Source of the DNA: an uncultured Blastococcus sp.
Lineage (GTDB): Bacteria > Actinomycetota > Actinomycetes > Mycobacteriales > Geodermatophilaceae
Length of the DNA stretch: 35,421 bases
NCBI GenBank assembly: GCA_902805535.1
Contig: CADCTN010000162.1
Location: 1 to 35,421 of the forward strand
Reading direction: 5' to 3'
Positions 4,533 through 35,421 of the stretch are shown here, one piece after another; position 1 is the first letter of the stretch; each line of letters begins with the position of its first letter. Under the pieces are notes generated by a model. That model worked only from the letters and a program-made list of their open reading frames with translations, was not told where the DNA came from and did not search any database. The translations under genes were made by a program, and so were the position numbers.

Positions 4533-5410
4533 GCGGGCGTCCTCTCCCGGTCGTTCGTGAGGGCGTTGCTGGTCGAATCCGTGCTGGTCGAATCCGTGCT
4601 GGTGGACTGGCTGGTGCGCGCGCGGTGGGGGGCTGCTCGCTCACCTGGTACAGGGCGTCCGGGGACCGTTCTGTTCCCCGGACGCTGTGACCCGGGCTGC
4701 ACCGGCCCCGGGATGTGCGTGGTGCAGATCCCGTCGCCGTGGGCGATCGTGGCCAGCCGCTGGACGTGGGTCCCGACGAGCCGGCCGATCACCGCGGTCT
4801 CGGCCTCGCACAGCTGGGGAAACTCCGCGGCCACGTGCGCCACCGGGCAGTGGTGCTGGCAGAGCTGCCCCCCGCCGGAAATAGCCGAGGCCGTGGCAGC
4901 GTAGCCCTCGGCGGTGAGCGCGACCGCGAGTGCCTGGGCCCGGTCGACCGGCGCTCCGCCGGCGGCCCGCACGACGCTCTCGACGGCGCTCGAGGCGCGG
5001 GACTCCAGCCCGGACAGCTGCTGCTCGGCGACGGCACGGACGGCCTCCGGGCCACCGGAGGCGGCCACGTACCGCAGCGCGGTCAGCGCCAGGTCGTCGT
5101 AGGCGTGCGGGAAGGCCGAACGTCCGGCGTCGGTCAGGTGGAACCGGCGGGCCGGGCGGCCCCGGCCGCGGTGCGCCGCGTCGCTCCCCCACCCACCCGG
5201 CCGCTCCTCGAGCCGGCCGGCGGCGACGAGGGAGTCCAGATGCCGGCGGACGGCGGCCGGGGAGATGCCCAGCCGGGTCGCCAGTTCGGTGGCCGTCTGC
5301 GGACCGTGCTCGAGCAGCAGGGCGCTGACGCGGTCGCGGGTCCGCCCGTCGTCGGCGGTCGCCGACGAACGCGGCTGTGCCCGTTCCTCGACCGGCCCGA
5401 CGCTTTCCAC
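4529..5410 (-). CDS. sufR: Fe-S sensing transcriptional repressor SufR
   Basis: A DeoR/ArsR-like winged-helix regulator that in other bacteria holds a [4Fe-4S] cluster and represses the suf operon when clusters are plentiful. The 293-aa product has a helix-turn-helix at about residues 38-62 ([21 protein letters not shown]). The cysteines Cys184, Cys188 and Cys201 give a CxxxC-x12-C pattern typical of SufR, with a further Cys229. The start is GTG at 5408-5410; a candidate operator overlaps it. The C-terminal 60 residues are Ser/Thr/Pro rich and include a perfect 15-bp duplication. The stop overlaps the sufB ATG, so the repressor is the leader gene of its own operon and autoregulation is likely. 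Confidence 0.9.
4571..4600 (-). repeat. Perfect 15-bp tandem duplication in the 3' end of sufR
   Basis: Two adjacent identical 15-base units (4571-4585 and 4586-4600, plus strand GGTCGAATCCGTGCT) encode two copies of a Ser-Thr-Asp-Ser-Thr type pentapeptide in the SufR tail. The unit length is a multiple of three, so the frame is kept. It is likely a replication-slippage expansion in a tolerant, disordered region. Confidence 0.85.
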
Positions 5411-5421
5411 AACACGAGTGT
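5407..5421 (-). promoter_or_regulatory. Candidate SufR operator overlapping the sufR start
   Basis: On the minus strand this reads ACACT-CGTGT-TGTGG, containing the inverted repeat ACAC-TC-GTGT, and its last bases include the sufR GTG. From memory, a site of the form ACACT-N5-TGTGA has been reported for mycobacterial SufR; this match is 9 of 10 defined bases, but I could not check the literature. Just upstream are TTGCTT (5444-5449) and a -10-like TAGGAC (5423-5428) spaced 15 nt. The site would therefore cover the transcription start region and block initiation. Confidence 0.5.
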
Positions 5422-5471
5422 GTCCTATTTCCGGGGAGTGGCAAGCAAGGCCGGCCTAACTTCCCGGCGGG

Positions 5472-5520
5472 CCGGCACGCCCCCGTGACCAGCGTCACCG
5501 CCGGTCGGGGGGCGTGCCGG
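5472..5520 (-). terminator. Hairpin terminator after the clp gene
   Basis: A perfect 13-bp GC stem (5472-5484 with 5508-5520) stands 2 nt beyond the clp stop codon. Its loop carries a second small stem (5485-5489 with 5494-5498). No T-tract follows, which is common for actinobacterial terminators. It separates the clp transcript from the sufR promoter. Confidence 0.65.
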
Positions 5521-5522
5521 GC

Positions 5523-8039
5523 TCAGGCCTGCCCGGCGGGCGCCCGGTCGCCGGCCACCTCGAAGTCCAGCCGCTCGTCCCGGACGACGACGCGGACCGT
5601 GTCCCCGCGCTGCAGGCCGCCCTGCAGGAGCAGCCGGGACAGGGGTGTCTCCAGCTCCCGCTGGATGACCCGGCGCAGCGGGCGGGCGCCGAAGTCCGGC
5701 TGGTGGCCGTGGTCGGCCAGCCACATCACCGCCTCCGGGGCGACGTCGAGGGTGATCCCCTGGGCGTCCGTCCGTCGACGGGTGTCCTCCAGCAGCAGGT
5801 CGGTGATCTGCCGCAGCTGGTCGGCCTCCAGCCGCTGGAAGACGACCACCTCGTCGACCCGGTTGAGGAACTCCGGCCGGAAGGACTCGCGCAGGCGGCG
5901 CATGATCCGGTCCCGGAGGTCGGCGGCCGACCCGCCGTCGGACGAGCCGAAGCCCAGCGGCGTGCCCCGGCCGACGATGAGCTCGGAGCCGAGGTTGCTC
6001 GTCATGATCAGCACCGTGTTGGTGAAGTCGACGGTTCGCCCCTGGCTGTCGGTCAGCCGCCCGTCGTCCAGCACCTGCAGCAGGGTGTTGAAGACGTCGG
6101 GGTGCGCCTTCTCGATCTCGTCGAGCAGCACCACCGAGTAGGGCCGGCGGCGGACGGCCTCGGTGAGCTGCCCGGCGTCCTCGTAGCCGACGTAGCCCGG
6201 CGGCGAGCCGACCAGCCGGCTGACCGTGTGCCGCTCCTGGAACTCGCTCATGTCCAGCCGGACCATCCGGTCCTCCTCGCCGAACAGGGCGGTGGCCAGC
6301 GCCTTGGCCAGCTCGGTCTTCCCCACGCCCGTCGGGCCGAGGAAGAGGAAGCTGCCGATCGGGCGGTCCGGGTCGCCCAGCCCGGCACGCGACCTGCGCA
6401 CCGCCTCCGCGACGACGGAGACGGCCTCGTCCTGGCCGATCACCCGCTCGTGCAGGCGGTCCTCCAGCTCCAGCAGCCGCTGCATCTCCTCCTGGGTCAG
6501 CTGGCTGACCGGGATGCCGGTGCTACGGGACACGACCTCCGCGATGTCCTGCACCTGCACGCACGGGATGCCCGTGTCGCCGCCGCCGCGCGCCTGCTCC
6601 AGCTGCTGCTCCGCCTCGCGCACCTGGTCCCGCAGCTCCGAGGCCCGCTCGTACTGCTCGGCCGCCACCGCCTGGTCCTTCTCCCGCTGGAGCCGGGAGA
6701 GCGCCTGCTCGAGTCCGCGCAGATCGGTCGGCGGCGTCTTCACCCGCCGACGCACCCGCGCGCCGGACTGGTCGATGAGGTCGATCGCCTTGTCCGGCAG
6801 GTGCCGGTCGGGGATGTAGCGGTCGGAGAGCTCCACGGCGGCCACCAGCGCCTCGTCGGTGAACCGGACCTGGTGGTGGGCCTCGTACCGGTCACGCAGA
6901 CCGCGGAGGATCTCGACGCTGTCGGCCACGCTCGGCTCGGAGACGAGGACCGGCTGGAACCGGCGTTCCAGGGCGGCGTCCTTCTCGATGTTGCGCCGGT
7001 ACTCCTCCAGGGTGGTCGCGCCGATGATGTGCAGCTCCCCGCGGGCCAGCGCGGGCTTGAGCATGTTGCCCGCGCCGCCCGACCCCTCCGACGCGCCGGC
7101 TCCGACCACCGTGTGCAGCTCGTCGATGAAGACGATCAGCTCGTCGCTGTGGTCGCGGATCTCGTCCATGATCTTCTTCAGGCGTTCCTCGAAGTCGCCG
7201 CGGTAGCGGGTGCCGGCGACCAGCCCGGTGAGGTCCAGCTCCACCACCCGGCGACCGCGCAGCGTCTCCGGCACGTCGTCGTCGGCGATCTGGGCGGCGA
7301 TGCCCTCGACGATGGCCGTCTTCCCCACGCCGGCCTCGCCGATGAGCACGGGGTTGTTCTTGCGCCGCCGCGCGAGCACTTCCAGCGTCTGGTCGATCTC
7401 CTCGTCGCGCCCGATGACCGGGTCGATCCGCCCGTCCCGCGCCAGCTCGGTGAGGTCGCGGCCGAACTCGTCGAGGGTGGGCGTGCTGGACGGCGGCTTG
7501 CCCGCGCTGCCCGGCGAACCTCCGCCACCGCTCGCCGCCTGCTGCAGCGCCTCCGGTGTCACGCCCGCCGAACGCAGCACCTGGCCGCCCGGGGAGTCCG
7601 GGTTCACCGCGAGCGCGAAGAGCAGGTGCTCGGGGCCGATGTAGGTCGATCCCAGCGCACGTGAGATCTGGTGGGCGTCGAGCAGTGCCCGCTTGGCGGC
7701 CGGCGTCAGCGTGAGGGGGCCGGTGACCTGCCGCGCGCCCTCGTGCGGGCCGGCCACCTGGTCGTGCAGCGTGCCGGGGGCGACGCCGGCGCGGCCGAGC
7801 AGCTGCCGGACCGACTCCTCCTCCGTCAGCGCCGCGAGCAGGTGCTGGGTGTCCACGTCGCTGGACCCGGCCTCGACGGCGTGCCGCGCGGCCGAGTTGA
7901 CCACCTCACGGCTGCGCTCGCTCAGGAACTGCGTGATGTCGATGCGCTGGCGCGGCTGACGTCCACCACCCCCGAGGTACCGCGCGAAGAACTCGTCGAA
8001 AGGGCCGCCGTCACCGCCGGGGAAAAAGCCGCTCGTCAT
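5523..8039 (-). CDS. ClpA/ClpC-type ATP-dependent unfoldase (two AAA+ modules)
   Basis: A Hsp100 protein that unfolds substrates for degradation or remodelling. The 838-aa product has a Gly-rich start ([19 protein letters not shown]), a Clp N-terminal repeat domain (about 25-170), a first AAA+ module with Walker [11 protein letters not shown] (about 232) and [12 protein letters not shown], a UVR-like coiled-coil (about 440-475), and a second module with [14 protein letters not shown] (about 565) and [14 protein letters not shown] loop near residue 690 reads GTPLGFGSS. Its LGF resembles the IGF/VGF tripeptide that docks ClpP, favouring a ClpC-like role over a ClpB disaggregase, but no clpP is adjacent. 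The ATG at 8037-8039 is chosen over an upstream in-frame extension because a -10 hexamer ends 8 nt before it. Confidence 0.85.
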
Positions 8040-27787: not shown

Positions 27788-28764
27788 TACTCGCGGCCGA
27801 GGTCGCGGTGCCGGGCCGCGGCCGTCAGCCCCTCGTCCGTGAGCCGGCGGGCGAACTCCTCGGCGATCGCCACGCTGCGGTGCTTGCCGCCGGTGCAGCC
27901 CACCGCGAGCGTCAGGTAGCGCTTGCCCTCCCGGCGGTAGCCGGGGATCAGCAGGCGCAGCACGTCGGTGTAGCGGTCCAGGAACTCCCCCGCGTCGTCC
28001 TGGCCGAGGACGTAGGCGCTCACGTCGGGGTCCTGCCCGGTCTTGGCGCGCAACTCCGGGATCCAGTGCGGGTTGGGCAGGAACCGAGCGTCGATGACCA
28101 GGTCGGCGTCCAGCGGCAGCCCGTACTTGAAGCCGAAACTCATGACCGTCGCGGTGAGCGGTTGGGTACGGCCCTCGCGGGCGAAGGCGTTCTCCAGCGT
28201 CGCGCGGAGCTGGTGGACGTTGAGGTCACTGGTGTCGACCCAGAGGTCGGCCTCCCCCGCGATCCCGGTGAGCAACGCCCGCTCGGCCGAGATGCCGTCG
28301 CTCAGCGTGCCGTTGCCCTGCAGCGGGTGCTCGCGGCGCACCGACTCGTACCGTCGGACCAGCACGTCGTCGCGGGCGTGGACGTAGATGACGCGGGGGC
28401 GGTTGCCCGCGTCGGCCAGCACCCGGAGGGCCTCCTGCAGATCGCTGGAAAAGGCCCGGCTGCGCACGTCGACGACGGCGGCGAAGCGGCGGAGGTCGCC
28501 CCGGGCACCCAGCTCCACCATGGGCTGCAGGAGCGCCGGGGGCAGGTTGTCGACGACGAACCAGCCCAGGTCCTCCAGGACCCGGCCCGCGCTGAGCTTG
28601 CCCGCCCCCGAGAGCCCCGTGACGACGACGATCTCCAGAGGCGCGACCTCGGTGGACGCGGGGTCCAGCGCCGGCTCGACCTCGCTCTGCGGACCCACCG
28701 GGCCGTCGTGGGCACCCGCCGGCGGGCCCTTCCCGTCCAACCCCTCGGACGTCCCGGTGGTCAC
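27787..28764 (-). CDS. rapZ: RapZ/YvcJ family nucleotide-binding protein
   Basis: RapZ-like proteins bind nucleotides and, in enterobacteria, guide RNase E to small RNAs; the actinobacterial role is less clear. The 325-aa product has the P-loop region [21 protein letters not shown] (about residues 48-67), [11 protein letters not shown], and a C-terminal domain with [25 protein letters not shown] and [19 protein letters not shown]. In the P-loop the lysine is followed by Leu, not the usual Ser or Thr. The first 40 residues are a poorly conserved acidic extension. The GTG start overlaps the uvrC stop (GTGA). Confidence 0.92.
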
Positions 28765-30809
28765 GAGGCCACCCGGCCGATCTCGGCGGTCTCCCCGGAC
28801 CCGTCGCGCGGGGTTCCGCGCTGGGCCGGGCCCTGCGGCGCGATCGTCGACTCGACCACGACCTCCTGCCCGGACGTCCCGTCCTCCGCGCCCTCGACGG
28901 CCGGCAGCGCGATCGCCGCCTGCACCGCCTCAGCGGTCCGCCGGCCGATGCCCGGAACGGTGGTGAGCTCCTCGATGGAGGCGGCACGCAGCCGCTTGAG
29001 CGATCCGAACTGCTTCATCAGCGCCTTTCGTCGCGAGTCCCCGAGGCCGGGGACGTCGTCCAGCATCGACACCAGCATGCTGGTGGACCGCTTCTGCCGG
29101 TGGTAGGTGATCGCGAACCGGTGGGCCTCGTCACGCACCCGCTGCAGGAGGTAGAGCGCCTCGGAGGTGCGGGGCAGGATCACCGGGTCGCTGTCCTCGG
29201 GCAGCCACACCTCCTCCATGCGCTTGGCCAGGCCGCAGACCGCGATGTCGACGATGCCCAGTTCCGTCAGTGACCGGCTGGCGGCGGCCACCTGGGGTGC
29301 ACCGCCATCCACCACGAGAAGATTCGGCGGGTAGGCGAACCGGCGCGGGCGCCCCTCCTCGGCGGCGACCCCCTGCTCGTCGCGGCGGTCGGCCTCGTCC
29401 TTGAGGTGCCGGGCGAAGCGCCGGCGGACGACCTCGGCCATGGCGGCGGTGTCGTCGGTGCCCTGCGCGACGGAGAACCGCCGGTAGTCGGACTTCTTGG
29501 CCAGGCCGTCCTCGAACACGACCATGCTGGCCACCACGTTGGTGCCCTGGACGTGCGAGATGTCGATGCACTCGATCCGCAGCGGTGCGTCGGACAGCTC
29601 GAGCGCCTCCTGCAGCTCCGAGAGCGCCAGGGAGCGGGCGGTGAGGTCGCTGGCCCGCTTCACCCGGTGCCGGGCGAACGCCTCCTTGGCGTTGCGCTCG
29701 ACGGTCTCGAGCAGGCTGCGCTTGTCGCCGCGCTGGGGCACCCGCAGGGAGACCTTCCCGCCCCGCAGCTCCTCGAGCAGCTCGGTGTAGACGTCGGCGT
29801 CCTCCGGCAGCTCGGGCACGAGTACCTCGCGCGGAACGTCCTCGCCGGCCTCCCCCACGCCGGTCTGCTCGTCGATGCCGCCGTAGACCTGGAGCAGGAA
29901 CTGCTCGACCAGCTCGCCGGTGGTGACGGCCTCGACCTTGTCGACGATCCAGCCGCGCTGGCCGCGCACCCGACCACCGCGCACGTGGAAGACCTGGACC
30001 GCGGCCTCCAGCTCGTCCTGGGCGAAGGCGACGACGTCGGCGTCGGTGCCGTCGCCCAGGACGACGGCCTGCTTCTCCATCGCCCGGTTGAGCGCGCCGA
30101 GGTCGTCGCGCAGGCGGGCGGCCTTCTCGAACTCCAGGGCCTCCGATGCGGCCGCCATCTCGCGCTGCAGCCGCTTCATCATCGCCTCGGTCCGGCCGGC
30201 CATGAAGTCGCAGAAGTCGTCGACGATCCCGCGATGCTCCTCGGCGCTCACCCGGCCGACGCAGGGAGCCGCGCACTTGCCGATGTAGCCGAGCAGGCAG
30301 GGTCGGCCGATCTGGCCGGCCCGCTTGAACACGCCGTTGGAGCAGGTCCGTGCCGGGAAGACCCGCGTCAGCGTGTCCAGCGTCTCGCGGATGGCCCAGG
30401 CGTGGGCGTAGGGGCCGAAGTAGCGGACGCCCTTGCGCTTGGGGCCCCGCATGACCTGCAGCCGCGGGTACTCCTCGTTCAGGGTGACCGCGAGGCTCGG
30501 GTAGCTCTTGTCGTCCCGGTACCGGACGTTGAACCGGGGATCGAACTCCTTGATCCAGTTGTACTCGAGCTGCAGCGCCTCGACCTCGGTGCCGACGACG
30601 GTCCAGTCCACGCTCGCCGCCGTCGTCACCATCTGGCGGGTGCGCGGGTGGAGGCCGGCGACGTCGGCGAAGTAGCTGCTCAGCCGCTGCCGGAGGCTCT
30701 TGGCCTTGCCGACGTAGATGACGCGGCCGCCGGGGTCGCGGAAGCGGTAGACCCCGGGCGACTCGGGGATGCTGCCGGCCGCCGGGCGGTACGTGGACGG
30801 ATCGGCCAT
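28761..30809 (-). CDS. uvrC: Excinuclease ABC subunit C
   Basis: UvrC makes both incisions around a DNA lesion in nucleotide excision repair. The 682-aa product has an N-terminal GIY-YIG nuclease domain ([24 protein letters not shown] at 17-40), four cysteines (156, 171, 179, 183) at the place where a [4Fe-4S] cluster is known in some UvrC proteins, a UVR motif for UvrB contact (about 215-250), an RNase H-like nuclease domain ([34 protein letters not shown]) and a C-terminal helix-hairpin-helix ([17 protein letters not shown]). A ragged Pro/Gly/Thr tail follows. It starts a unit with rapZ, yvcK and whiA. Confidence 0.97.
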
Positions 30810-31011: not shown

Positions 31012-31017
31012 TACGGT
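31012..31017 (+). promoter_or_regulatory. Probable -10 element of the retron RNA
   Basis: TACGGT would start transcription at about 31022-31025, which coincides with the first base of the outer stem of the predicted retron RNA. This agreement of two independent signals is the reason for calling it. The -35 region reads CACAGC (30989-30994) and is not canonical. Confidence 0.5.
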
Positions 31018-31021
31018 GGCC

Positions 31022-31185
31022 GGGTGCGCGACGGGGCGGGCAGGACGACCGGTGGAGACCGGTTCACCCGGGGCAACCCCGGGGATCGCACTGTTCCCGA
31101 GCATCTCGTCAACCGCCAGGCCGTGCGCTCCGCGCACCTGATGGCGCCTCGATCAGGGGCTGGCTGCCCGCTCCGCCGCGCACTC
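31022..31185 (+). ncRNA. Predicted retron msr-msd non-coding RNA
   Basis: The outer arms 31022-31043 (a1) and 31164-31185 (a2) pair over 22 positions: 19 Watson-Crick, two G-U, one A-C mismatch. Immediately inside a1 are two adjacent short hairpins: 31047-31053 with 31058-31064 (7 bp, loop GGAG) and 31067-31073 with 31077-31083 (7 bp, loop CAA). These fit the msr part. The remaining 31084-31163 fits an msd of about 80 nt; it holds a GTGCGC/GCGCAC stem with a 3-nt loop (31123-31128, 31132-31137) and a CTGAT/ATCAG stem (31138-31142, 31152-31156), with alternative longer pairings. The branching guanosine would be expected near the inner end of a1 (G31043 or G31044). The RNA ends 5 nt before the reverse transcriptase start, the order a1-msr-msd-a2-RT known for retrons. 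Confidence 0.72.
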
Positions 31186-31190
31186 CCCCG

Positions 31191-32546
31191 GTGACCGCCC
31201 CTACCGAGCGCCGGGCGGCCGGAACGGCGGCGGGCATCGCCACCGCCCTGCTCGCGGGCCGCTGGCGACGGCCGGAGATGGTCCGACGCACGGCGGTCGC
31301 CCTCGGGCTGCCCCGGGCGCCCCGTTGGGTGGGGGCGCTGGTCGGCGAGGTCCTGGCCGCCTACCGGGACCCACCGGTGGACCGGCCCCGGGAACTGGCC
31401 GGGTTCGTCCGGACGACCGAGGGCTGGGCGCGCGGGTGGACCGTCGACCCGCAGCCCCGGATCGCCCGCTGGCAGCCGACGGCCACCGCTCCCGGCCGGC
31501 GCCCGTACGGGGTCGCCGAGCTCCCGGACCTGACGGCGCTGGCCCGGCTGCTGGACCTGGACTCCGGTGAGCTGGCCTGGTTCGCCGACACCCACCGGCT
31601 CGAACGCACGGTGCAAGAGCCGCTGCGGCACTACCGGTGGACGGCGGTCGGCGGCCGGCTGCTCGCGGCGCCCAAGCCGCGGCTCAAGGAGGCGCAGCGG
31701 CGACTGCTCCGGCACGTGGTCGGGCCGCTGCGGGTGCACCCGGCGGCGCACGGTTCCGTGCCCGGGCGCTCGGTGCGCACCGCGGCGACCCCGCACGCCG
31801 GAGCCGCCCGGGTGCTGCAGCTGGACCTGGAGTCGTTCTTCGCGAGCATCGCCGCCGAACGGGTGTACGGCCTGCTGCGGTCGGTGGGCGGGCTCCCCGA
31901 GCCGGTGGCACGCGCGGTGACCGGGCTGGTGACCACCGTGGTGCCGCATCCGGTCTGGCGGCGGGTGCCGGTGCCGGACGACGCCGACCGGCACCACCGC
32001 CTGGGCCGGCGTCTGGCGGTGCCGCACCTGCCGCAGGGGGCGCCGACCTCACCGGCGCTGGCGAACCTGGTGTGCTTCCGGCTGGACCGCCGCCTCGACG
32101 GCCTGGCGGCCTCGTTCGGAGCCGCCTACACCCGCTACGTCGACGACCTGACCTTCAGCGGCGACCCGGGGATCGACCGAGGCGACCTGGAACGGCTGGC
32201 CGGTGAGATCGTCGTCGACGAGGGCTTCCGGGTGAACCGACCCAAGACCCGGTCGACGTCGTCGGCCCGGCGCCAGTCCGTGCTCGGGACGGTGGTGAAC
32301 GTCCGGCCGACCCTGCCGCGCACCGAGCGGGACGCCCTGCGGGCGCTGCTGCACAACTGCGCGACCCACGGCTGGACGACGCAGGTCCGCGACCGCGACC
32401 GCGCGACCTTCCGCGACCACGTGCTCGGCCGGGTCGCCTGGGCTGCCTCGATCGACCCGGTCCTCGGTGGGCGCCTGCGGGCACAGGCGGACCGGATCGA
32501 CTGGTCCACCGACGGCGACGGGTCGGCCCCACGTCCCTCGCCCTGA
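31191..32546 (+). CDS. Retron-type reverse transcriptase
   Basis: An RNA-directed DNA polymerase of 451 aa. RT motifs in order: the fingers region RLLAAPKPRLKEAQRRLL (about 156-173), HPAAHGSVPGRS (183-194), motif A LQLDLESFFASI with catalytic Asp212, LPQGAPTSPALANLVC (280-295), the active site YVDD (316-319) in YTRYVDDLTFSGD, and RVNRPKTRS then VLGTVVNV (364-371). LPQGAPTSP and the VVN strand place it with retron RTs, not group II introns or DGR enzymes. I recall myxobacterial retron RTs as similar. About 140 residues precede the RT core; they look helical and include RWVGALVGEVLAAYRD. No second protein is encoded in the unit. The GTG at 31191 is the only in-frame start directly after the RNA; no ribosome site is evident. 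Confidence 0.88.
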   Translation: MTAPTERRAAGTAAGIATALLAGRWRRPEMVRRTAVALGLPRAPRWVGALVGEVLAAYRDPPVDRPRELAGFVRTTEGWARGWTVDPQPRIARWQPTATAPGRRPYGVAELPDLTALARLLDLDSGELAWFADTHRLERTVQEPLRHYRWTAVGGRLLAAPKPRLKEAQRRLLRHVVGPLRVHPAAHGSVPGRSVRTAATPHAGAARVLQLDLESFFASIAAERVYGLLRSVGGLPEPVARAVTGLVTTVVPHPVWRRVPVPDDADRHHRLGRRLAVPHLPQGAPTSPALANLVCFRLDRRLDGLAASFGAAYTRYVDDLTFSGDPGIDRGDLERLAGEIVVDEGFRVNRPKTRSTSSARRQSVLGTVVNVRPTLPRTERDALRALLHNCATHGWTTQVRDRDRATFRDHVLGRVAWAASIDPVLGGRLRAQADRIDWSTDGDGSAPRPSP

Positions 32547-32587: not shown

Positions 32588-35421
32588 TCAGCTGGCCTTC
32601 TTGCGGGTCCGCTTCTTCGGCGCCGCAGCCGCCGCGACCGCCTCCTGGTCGAGGATGGCGGCCAGGTAGCGGCCGGTGTGGCTCTCCGGCACCGAGGCGA
32701 GGAACTCCGGCGGCCCCTCGGCCACCACCGTCCCGCCCCGGAAGCCGCCCTCGGGCCCCATGTCGATCAGCCAGTCGGCGCTCTTGATCACGTCGAGGTT
32801 GTGCTCGATGACGATCACCGAGTTGCCCTTGTCGACGAGGCCCTGGAGGACGAGGAGGAGCTTGCGGATGTCCTCGAAGTGCAGCCCGGTGGTCGGCTCG
32901 TCGAGCACGTAGATGCTGCGCCCGTTGGACCGCTTCTGCAGCTCGCTGGCCAGCTTCACCCGCTGCGCCTCACCGCCGGAGAGCGTCGTGGCCGGCTGGC
33001 CGAGCCGGACGTAGCCGAGCCCGACCTCGGTGAGGGTGCGCAGGTATCGGGCGATCGCCGGGATCGCGGCGAAGAAGTCCGCGGCCTCCTCGATCGGCAT
33101 GTCGAGGACCTCGGCCACCGTCCTGCCCTTGTAGTGCACCTCGAGGGTCTCCCGGTTGAAGCGGGCGCCCTTGCACACCTCGCAGGGGACGTAGACGTCG
33201 GGCAGGAAGTTCATCTCGATCTTCAGCGTGCCGTCGCCGGAGCACGCCTCGCACCGGCCGCCCTTCACGTTGAAGGAGAAGCGGCCGGGCAGGTACCCGC
33301 GCATCTTCGCCTCCGTGGTGCTGGCGAACAGCTTGCGGACGTGGTCCCACACCCCGGTGTAGGTGGCCGGGTTGGACCGCGGCGTGCGGCCGATCGGCGA
33401 CTGGTCGACGTGCACGACCTTGTCCAGGTGCTCCAGGCCGGTGATCGTGCGGTGCCGGCCGGGCACCATGCGGGCGCGGTTGAGCTGGTTGGCCAGGGTC
33501 GTGTAGAGGATGTCGTTGACCAGGCTGGACTTGCCCGATCCGGACACCCCGGTGACCGCCACCAGGCACCCCAGCGGGAACGTGACGTCGACGCCCTTGA
33601 GGTTGTGCTCCCGGGCTCCCTTGACCACGAGCTCACGGCCCGGAGTGATCTCGCGTCGCTTCTCCGGGATCTCGATGGACCGGCGCCCGGACAGGTATGC
33701 GCCGGTCAGCGAGCGCTCGCTGGCCATCAGGTCCTCGAGGCTGCCGCTGACGACGACCTCACCACCGTGCTCGCCCGCGCCGGGGCCGATGTCCACGATC
33801 CAGTCGGCCACCTTGATCGTGTCCTCGTCGTGCTCGACCACGATGAGCGTGTTGCCCATGTCGCGGAGCCGGACGAGCGTCTCGATCAGTCGTGCGTTGT
33901 CCCGCTGGTGCAGCCCGATCGACGGCTCGTCGAGCACGTAGAGGACGCCGACCAGGCCGGAGCCGATCTGGGTGGCGAGCCGGATGCGCTGCGCCTCGCC
34001 ACCGGCGAGGGTGGCCGCCGGCCGGTCGAGGGAGAGGTAGTCGAGGCCGACGTCGACCAGGAAGGAGAGCCGGGCCTGGATCTCCCTGAGCACCCGGTCG
34101 GCGATGGCGCGCTCCCGCTCACCGAGCTCGAGGCCGTTCAGCCACTCCGAGGCGTCGCCGATGGACAGGTTGGTGACCTCGGCGATGGAGCGGCTGTTGA
34201 GCTTGACGGCCAGGATCTCGGGCTTGAGGCGGGTGCCGTGGCAGACGGGACAGGGCACGTCGCGCATGTAGCCCTCGTACTTGTCCCGCATGTACTCGCT
34301 GTCGGTGTCCTCGTGGCGCCGCTCGAGGAACGGCAGCACGCCCTCGAACGCGGCGTAGTAGCTGCGCTCGCGCCCGTACCGGTTCTTGTAGCGGACGTGC
34401 ACCTGGTCCGGGGACCCGTGCAGGACCGCCTTCTGGACCTTGGCCGGCAGGTCCCCCCACGGGGTGTCCATCGAGAAGCCGAGCATCTGCGACAGGCCGG
34501 TGAGCAGCCGGGTGAAGTACTCGTTGCTCATCGAACCGGCCCAGGGCGCCACCGCCCCGTCCCCGAGGCTCTTCTCCGGGTCGGGGATGACCAGGTCCGG
34601 GTCGACCTCCTTGCGGGTGCCGATGCCGGTGCACTCGGGGCAGGCCCCGAACGGGGAGTTGAACGAGAAGGACCGCGGCTCGAGCGCCTCGAACGAGAGC
34701 CCGTCGTCGACGCAGGCGAGGTGCTCGGAGAAGGTGCGCTCGCGCTGCGGGTCGTTCTCGGCCAGGTCGACGAAGTCGAGCACCACGAGACCGCCGGCCA
34801 GGCCGAGGGCGGTCTCCACCGAATCGGTCAGCCGGCGCTTGGCGCTCTCCTTGACCGTGAGGCGGTCCACGATCACCTCGATCGTGTGCTTCTCCTGCTT
34901 CTTGAGCGTCGGCGGCTCGGTCAGCGGGTGGACGACGCCGTCGACCCGGACGCGGGAGAAGCCCTGGGTCTGCAGCGAGCTGAAGAGGTCGACGTACTCG
35001 CCTTTGCGGGCGCGGACCACCGGCGCCAGCACCTGGAAGCGGGTGCCTTCCTCCATGCCGAGCACCTGGTCGACGATCTGCTGCGGTGTCTGGCGGGAGA
35101 TCGGCTTGCCGCAGTTGGGGCAGTGCGGCTGGCCGGCCCGCGCGTAGAGCAGGCGCAGGTAGTCGTAGACCTCGGTGATGGTGCCCACCGTCGACCGCGG
35201 GTTGCGGTTGGTGGACTTCTGGTCGATCGAGACCGCCGGGGACAGGCCCTCGATGAAGTCGACGTCGGGCTTGTCCATCTGGCCGAGGAACTGACGGGCG
35301 TAGGCCGACAGCGACTCGACGTACCGGCGCTGGCCCTCGGCGAAGATCGTGTCGAAGGCGAGGCTGGACTTGCCCGAGCCGGAGAGCCCCGTGAAGACGA
35401 TCAGCGCGTCACGGGGCAGGT
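32588..35421 (-). CDS. uvrA: Excinuclease ABC subunit A (partial, N-terminus beyond right edge)
   Basis: UvrA is the damage-sensing ABC ATPase dimer of nucleotide excision repair. The visible 944 codons start just before the first Walker A ([17 protein letters not shown]) and run to the stop. Seen: the following [21 protein letters not shown], cysteine pairs of zinc modules ([17 protein letters not shown], and [11 protein letters not shown] with CEVCKGARF), first ABC signature [19 protein letters not shown], second Walker [17 protein letters not shown] and second signature [16 protein letters not shown]. The tail is Ala/Lys rich ([10 protein letters not shown]). Only the first 20-30 residues should be missing. 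It lies in the same direction as uvrC, with the oppositely oriented retron unit between them. Confidence 0.97.

Follow-up and report, generated by a model that had tools for sequence, protein, structure and literature searches.

In the parts of the retron literature consulted here, retrons are now described as three-part systems. The consulted portions of Simon et al. 2019 (PMC6868368) give TAGC, CAGA, CAGC, GAGC and ACGC as priming contexts of known retrons, describe the reverse transcriptases (RTs) of Mx162, Mx65, Sa163 and Ne144 as having an extended N-terminus, present Mx162 and Sa163 as clustered in related species and vertically inherited, and state that surveys found putative retrons in Actinobacteria. 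In the consulted portion of PMC4244168, the VTG motif is present in 47% of the retron RTs surveyed.

Here we analysed a 35,421-nucleotide stretch of DNA from an uncultured Blastococcus sp. (contig CADCTN010000162.1; hereafter the window), in which a plus-strand retron unit lies between the uvrC and uvrA genes, both on the minus strand and named by Pfam (Table 1). We consider it very probable that this unit is a genuine chromosomal retron, composed of an msr-msd RNA and an RT, with no dedicated effector encoded beside it. The retron reading had been proposed in a first-pass annotation of the sequence, and it is supported by covariation in the arms of the RNA and by the kinship of the RT in profile, tree and fold.

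Table 1 Features of the retron unit and its flanking genes in the window (position 1 is its first nucleotide)
Feature	Position	Strand	Basis
uvrC	28761-30809	minus	Pfam
-10-like promoter hexamer TACGGT, 4 nt 5' of arm 1	31012-31017	+	sequence; motif frequency in relatives
Arm 1 (a1) of the long inverted repeat, msr 5' end	31022-31043	+	pairs with 31164-31185; covariation
Candidate priming (branch) guanosine, first unpaired base 3' of a1	31044	+	G in 54/55 loci
msr hairpin 1, 7 bp, 4-nt loop	31047-31064	+	fold; covariation
msr hairpin 2, 7 bp, CAA loop	31067-31083	+	fold; pairing over 55 loci
msd template region, predicted RT-DNA at most ~79 nt	31085-31163	+	inferred from position
Main msd hairpin: outer GCCA/TGGC, inner GTGCGC/GCGCAC	31115-31145	+	both modelled helices: pairs changed on both sides
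Second, smaller msd hairpin	31146-31160	+	window's own fold; weaker comparative support
Arm 2 (a2) of the inverted repeat	31164-31185	+	as arm 1
Retron RT, 451 aa, GTG start	31191-32546	+	profiles, tree, fold, dN/dS
RT residues 1 to ~110, N-terminal extension, predicted helical; ~111-440, RT domain			
Catalytic YVDD motif, residues 316-319	32136-32147	+	YxDD kept in relatives
uvrA	stop at 32588	minus	Pfam

The upstream RNA and its conservation

The two arms of the inverted repeat are 22 nt each and stand 120 nt apart, with 21 of the 22 positions pairable, two of them as G-U by hand count. A repeat search returned the inner 20 nt of the arms as 90% complementary, and the predicted fold pairs all but one arm position. 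The RT start codon follows 5 nt 3' of arm 2. The arm length, the spacing, the 21 pairable positions and the gene start match those given in the first-pass annotation, as do the two 7-bp hairpins after arm 1, which reappeared in the fold, and the -10 hexamer in front of it. The msd template was placed as in Table 1 because this region is flanked by msr hairpin 2 and arm 2, and the msd hairpins fall within it.

Folding of 31022-31194 yielded -100.6 kcal/mol, compared with -86.1 +/- 4.4 kcal/mol for 200 dinucleotide shuffles (z -3.3), none of which was as low; the native RNA is thus more stable than its shuffled controls, the comparison for which the first-pass annotation had called. The predicted RT-DNA folded alone showed no excess stability (z -0.2). 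Taken by itself, the inverted repeat appears only moderately unusual for a single sequence, its pairing score being attained in 0.7% of 408 windows drawn at random from the loci of the relatives. This score lends some room to the alternative that the locus is not a retron, the RT belonging to another class and the repeat being a leader, an attenuator or a chance product of GC-rich DNA. It is the comparative evidence, namely covariation and conservation of the promoter motif, that places the RNA structure far beyond chance.

When 31 upstream regions (the window and 30 relatives) were aligned with plain MAFFT, 96.2% of cells were paired and 18 of 45 pairs had changed on both sides, including 11 of the 18 arm pairs. 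None of 500 shuffles attained any of these measures, and sliding the alignment by 1-3 columns lowered the pairing to 42-46%. A second alignment of 55 loci, which takes in Tsukamurella, Dietzia, three Burkholderia and one Hyphomonadaceae metagenome-assembled genome (MAG), was fitted to a covariance model and is therefore biased towards it; here 95.5% of cells were paired and 38 of 45 pairs, including all 18 arm pairs, had changed on both sides. These loci were picked after earlier searches, so that matches in all 55 should not be read as a detection rate. Arm covariation, which the first-pass annotation had expected of a retron, was thus found in both alignments.

All six modelled pairs of msr hairpin 1 had changed on both sides among the 55 loci. 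Hairpin 2, whose stem reads GGGG/CCCC in most of the lineage's loci, was paired in 98.9% of cells over the same set, Burkholderia and the Hyphomonadaceae MAG included. Both modelled helices of the main msd hairpin had some pairs changed on both sides in either alignment, and the aligned helix of the second msd hairpin was paired in 72.8% of cells (55 loci). Judged from these sequence comparisons, selection acts on the structure of the RNA.

A covariance model built from the 31 aligned regions found 45 matches in 298 genomes of the order, 17 in training genomes and 28 outside the training set. Forty of them sit -6 to 301 nt ahead of an RT match, and one (G276) reaches into the start of an RT match that is fragmented; the other four carry no check of RT position. 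At E 0.01 the model matched neither three loci without a retron (L088, L089 and L095) nor two other retron types (L333 and L335). At the same threshold it also gave no match in L031, a member of the focal clade, which counts against the retron reading, and none in L007, L008 and L332, which we list on the same side. For the promoter count, 52 upstream regions were scanned and 45 used; L007, L008, L030, L031, L036, L037 and L056 were left out, as no arm pair in them was conspicuous and plausible at the expected place. The RNA model later picked up three of these (L030, L036 and L056), and two loci lay near its threshold (L037, E 0.008; L076, E 0.014). The RNA has no match in Rfam 15.

A -10-like motif, TANNNT, occurs 8-16 nt 5' of arm 1 in 36 of the 45 loci (window included), compared with 0.4% of 5,285 background 25-nt windows. 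It is absent in the other nine loci, which counts against the retron reading. Directly 3' of arm 1, 54 of the 55 loci in the model-fitted alignment carry a G, a figure that concerns base identity only; in the 55th (L034) the alignment is apparently shifted by one base at this position. By analogy with known retrons, G31044 would be the 2'-5' branch point. The priming context in the window is CAG followed by GAC (CAGG), which is not among the contexts given for known retrons and likewise counts against the retron reading.

The reverse transcriptase and its N-terminal extension

The window RT was best matched by the PADLOC profiles RT_other (3.1e-155) and RT_outgroup (1e-146), followed by RT_XIII (1.4e-79), and it matched Pfam RVT_1 at 2e-13. 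The best NCBIfam model was that of retron St85, with 146 bits, below its cut-off of 235. The NCBIfam models for group II maturase (5e-7, 29 bits against a cut-off of 300) and DRT2 (2e-7, 30 bits against 390) fell far under theirs. Sequence comparison with the PDB gave 14 matches at E up to 0.001, of which 12 are named retron and the remaining two (9kjx and 9n69) are titled retron complexes.

In a tree of 46 RT rows, the 25 focal rows formed one clade (support 100/100) among retron-labelled and a few unlabelled RTs, with eight group II intron RTs set apart (100/99). The sister of the focal clade was L332 plus L007, for both of which RT_XIII is the best profile (95/89); two further rows with the same best profile, L188 and L190, were placed elsewhere, and a single DRT2 row, long-branched, was placed apart from the retron set. 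The tree is to be read with three unlabelled rows, some partial matches and flagged long branches (L127, L194 and L193) in mind. As a side observation, L332 is a Methylobacterium plasmid RT of 602 aa with no RNA-model match upstream. Assignment of the window RT to group II introns or to the DRT class was ruled out by the bit scores below cut-off together with the placement in the tree. Type XIII was rejected as well, since RT_XIII scored 266 bits against 516 bits for RT_other and the focal RTs form a separate clade.

An AlphaFold2 model of the RT, built on an 18-row alignment that holds ten other RTs (nine of them from viral contigs), reached a mean pLDDT of 79.5, with most blocks of the RT core above 90; it replaced a model from an 8-row alignment that was too weak (pLDDT 56.6). 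In a Foldseek search of the PDB with the later model, the 18 best chains were all retron structures, and group II-like enzymes came next. The catalytic motif is YVDD in 32 and YADD in 17 of 49 relatives, that is, YxDD in all. Eleven pairs gave dN/dS values of 0.17-0.32, indicative of purifying selection on the RT.

Two motifs are less well kept. At the VTG position (region Y) the window has VLG, and the 49 relatives have VTG in 13 cases, VLG in 31 and another residue or a gap in five. Within NAxxH (region X), the N is kept in none of the 49 relatives and the H in 48. As read from the sequences, these degenerate motifs would count against the retron reading, and together with the unremarkable single-sequence score of the repeat they are what speaks for an RT of another class beside a fortuitous or regulatory repeat. 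That alternative is contradicted by profiles, tree and fold on the protein side and by covariation and the conserved position of the RNA beside the RT on the other, and we regard it as highly improbable. On sequence and model evidence, we therefore take the window RT to be a retron RT. Both the profile search and the phylogeny suggested in the first-pass annotation led to this placement, among retron RTs and with RT_other and RT_outgroup as best profiles.

Residues 1-110 of the RT match no Pfam family. Helices are predicted in this extension at residues 4-21, 27-37, 45-57 and 66-80 of the AlphaFold2 model, with low to middling confidence (pLDDT blocks 32-75). A self-contained retron, in which this helical extension is itself the effector, would fit the predicted helices and would recall the N-terminally extended RTs of Mx162, Mx65, Sa163 and Ne144, as described in the consulted portion of PMC6868368. 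It is hard to reconcile with four genomes of one genus (G069, G076, G090 and G097), in which the RNA-model match ends 28-51 nt before the RT match and the RT matches begin at residue 107-114: the extension is absent there, hence dispensable in that genus and not a universal effector. The modest pLDDT and the lack of a Pfam family weigh on the same side, as does the start codon in L075, which directly follows arm 2, and we consider an effector role of the extension unlikely. The L075 locus (6913-7078) is of some interest in its own right, combining a perfect 16-bp arm pair, an ATG directly after arm 2 and an RT without extension in what appears to be a natural minimal form.

With the retron reading as the working model, transcription would start at arm 1 or right beside it, driven by the -10-like element immediately 5' of this arm, and the RNA would fold with a1 and a2 paired. 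The RT, encoded on the same strand directly after a2, would recognise the folded RNA, and the 2'-OH of G31044 would prime copying of the template 5' of a2, giving a branched msDNA predicted to be at most ~79 nt long.

Distribution, neighbourhoods and the effector question

Relatives of the RT turned up in 54 of 200 genomes from the order and in 52 of 112 from the family, the window's own included. By hand count, 34 of the 52 matching family genomes contain a single match of 400 residues or more, and the other 18 only partial or fragmented matches, some perhaps cut by contig ends. The RNA-RT unit also occurs in distant lineages, namely Burkholderia and one alphaproteobacterial (Hyphomonadaceae) MAG.

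To compare insertion contexts we grouped the flanks of 30 loci at the protein level, which gave seven groups when at least one gene had to be shared and nine when at least two had to be; within the family (28 loci) the numbers were six and seven, hence at least six neighbourhoods. Grouping by blastn had given ten upstream and nine downstream groups, of which the protein-level recount merged two; a tblastx comparison joined all loci and was discarded. The lower number of sites means that more of the spread is vertical, which makes both a selfish element and a mobile bare cassette slightly less likely.

The clearest comparison comes from two genomes of the Modestobacter genus (G182 and G266), in which the bare unit separates two convergent genes that lie directly side by side in G048, G039, G265, G267 and G277. 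About 30 nt ahead of arm 1 come with the unit, and its RT stop codon overlaps that of the neighbouring gene; neither a target duplication nor a terminal repeat was seen at the unit ends in this one clear case. Such a pattern is compatible with movement of a bare cassette, local rearrangement, or lateral transfer followed by recombination. In G048, G092, G039, G099 and G265 the retron lies one gene further on than in G182 and G266, and two positions one gene apart in one genus suggest a local hop or rearrangement. Separately, a copy in the Modestobacter-like genus g4 (L041, in G267) encodes an RT 79% identical to that of the window in a different neighbourhood; in the tree it groups with the window RT and not with the other g4 row, which makes lateral transfer likely for this copy.

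Partial copies in 18 of the 52 matching genomes, at least six neighbourhoods among the 28 family loci and the bare unit of G182 and G266 would all suit a largely selfish retroelement, in which promoter, RNA and RT spread as a bare cassette with little benefit to the host. The missing target duplication and terminal repeat speak against it, as do the lack of an endonuclease or integrase in the unit and the reduced number of sites; dN/dS cannot separate selfish from host selection. We therefore find a largely selfish element doubtful.

Within the genus, the RT is present in three of 16 genomes, in all three beside uvrC and uvrA. A retron remnant occupies the uvrC-uvrA position in one genome of another genus (G202), and other neighbours were found in the other genera examined. 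A link to UV or nucleotide excision repair was rejected on account of these other neighbours and of the three in 16 genomes of the genus, and the uvrC-uvrA position is incidental. The uvrC-uvrA interval varies in the genus, with different sequences in L088, L089, L095, L058 and L001; by eye, a small minus-strand ORF seems present in L001, L058 and L089 and looks deleted in the window. L089 is a Blastococcus empty site, too diverged to fix the exact ends of the unit.

We searched for an effector by clustering the neighbours of 22 loci (20 genome stretches plus L006 and, from the sister group, L007) with a crude ORF caller. No gene family was an immediate RT neighbour twice among these loci; families common to up to five loci exist, never as a constant neighbour. 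The script made no RT call in the window, and its neighbours were read from the sequence and named by Pfam. Annotated plasmid copies in Tsukamurella, Burkholderia pyrrocinia and Dietzia likewise have ordinary neighbours and no evident toxin. The one exception is a HAD-like gene directly 3' of the RT on the same strand in L328 (Tsukamurella; 4947-5555) and L077 (6132-6731), 88% identical between the two; a search of 46 loci found it in L077 only, besides L328. It may represent shared synteny of close relatives or a lineage-specific partner; we prefer the former, unproven as it is. Apart from this exception, no linked effector or accessory protein of the kind that marks a tripartite defence retron was found at the loci examined. 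This result counts against the retron reading, as do the merely partial or fragmented RT matches in 18 of the 52 matching family genomes. The first-pass description of the retron as complete is thus borne out for the msr-msd and the RT, but not for an effector, as no conserved effector gene lies beside them in the 22 loci and the three plasmid copies.

Since no dedicated effector is encoded beside it, the RT-msDNA complex would rely on the N-terminal extension of the RT, on a protein whose gene lies elsewhere, or on no effector at all. The RNA-RT unit could be the sensing half of a system whose toxin lies elsewhere in the chromosome, as selection acts on both RNA and RT, yet the search for a conserved neighbour found none; for comparison, HNH and ATPase genes are annotated next to a conventional retron RT in Priestia. 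A fixed partner in trans would hinder passage into lineages as distant as Burkholderia and an alphaproteobacterial MAG, and no candidate emerged from the loci examined, so that we regard an effector in trans as rather unlikely. As to function, our guess would be an accessory role in stress or phage defence rather than housekeeping, since the unit is patchy in the family, sits in several neighbourhoods and often occurs as partial copies.

A broader proposal, which we put forward tentatively and hold to be rather unlikely, is that an effector-less lineage has dispersed among replicons of actinomycetes and proteobacteria as a bare cassette of promoter, RNA and RT, 1.5 kb long, with the msDNA as its working product. 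If true, the msDNA, with the RT or a host protein, would form a minimal unit of immunity or regulation, or else an autonomous retroelement. Retrons are mainly read as triads of RNA, RT and toxin, whereas here RNA and RT appear to be selected without a conserved linked toxin, in a lineage that spans several actinomycete families and some proteobacteria. What msDNA does alone becomes testable in culturable relatives, for example Blastococcus and Modestobacter. In addition, the RNA family described by the covariance model is not in Rfam 15, and the GC-rich pair of RNA and RT may lend itself to making DNA in actinomycetes.

Comparison with known retrons

No paper on this retron lineage was among the open-licence literature matches listed. 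The earlier suggestion that the retron could be undescribed is borne out in part only: Rfam 15 gave no match to the RNA, but the RT family is in PADLOC, and surveys had turned up putative retrons in Actinobacteria according to the consulted portion of PMC6868368.

The solved retron closest in fold is Ec86 (Eco1), the best PDB match of the window RT (7v9x, TM 0.77 on the target), and Ec86 entries are also the three best PDB matches by sequence. The two RTs share 26% identity in the fold alignment. The Ec86 RT is shorter (~320 aa), and an effector is present in the solved complex 7v9x.

The myxobacterial retrons Mx162 and Sa163 resemble the window in the extended N-terminus of the RT, a likeness drawn by description from the consulted portion of PMC6868368. 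In the same source their priming context is CAGC, in contrast to CAGG in the window, and the Mx162 msd is 162 nt long, in contrast to the at most ~79 nt predicted here.

Type XIII retrons (RT_XIII, PDLC02956) are akin in that L332 and L007 are sister to the focal clade; they differ in that the RNA model, at E 0.01, matched neither of these two loci, for which RT_XIII is the best profile. The two best profiles of the window RT, PADLOC RT_other (PDLC02949) and RT_outgroup (PDLC03740), are also the best for its relatives in Tsukamurella, Dietzia, Burkholderia cenocepacia and Hyphomonadaceae. These profiles name the RT only (with the word "retron" for RT_outgroup), without RNA, effector or function. 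The lineage is already represented by PADLOC RT profiles, and its RNA model is given here.
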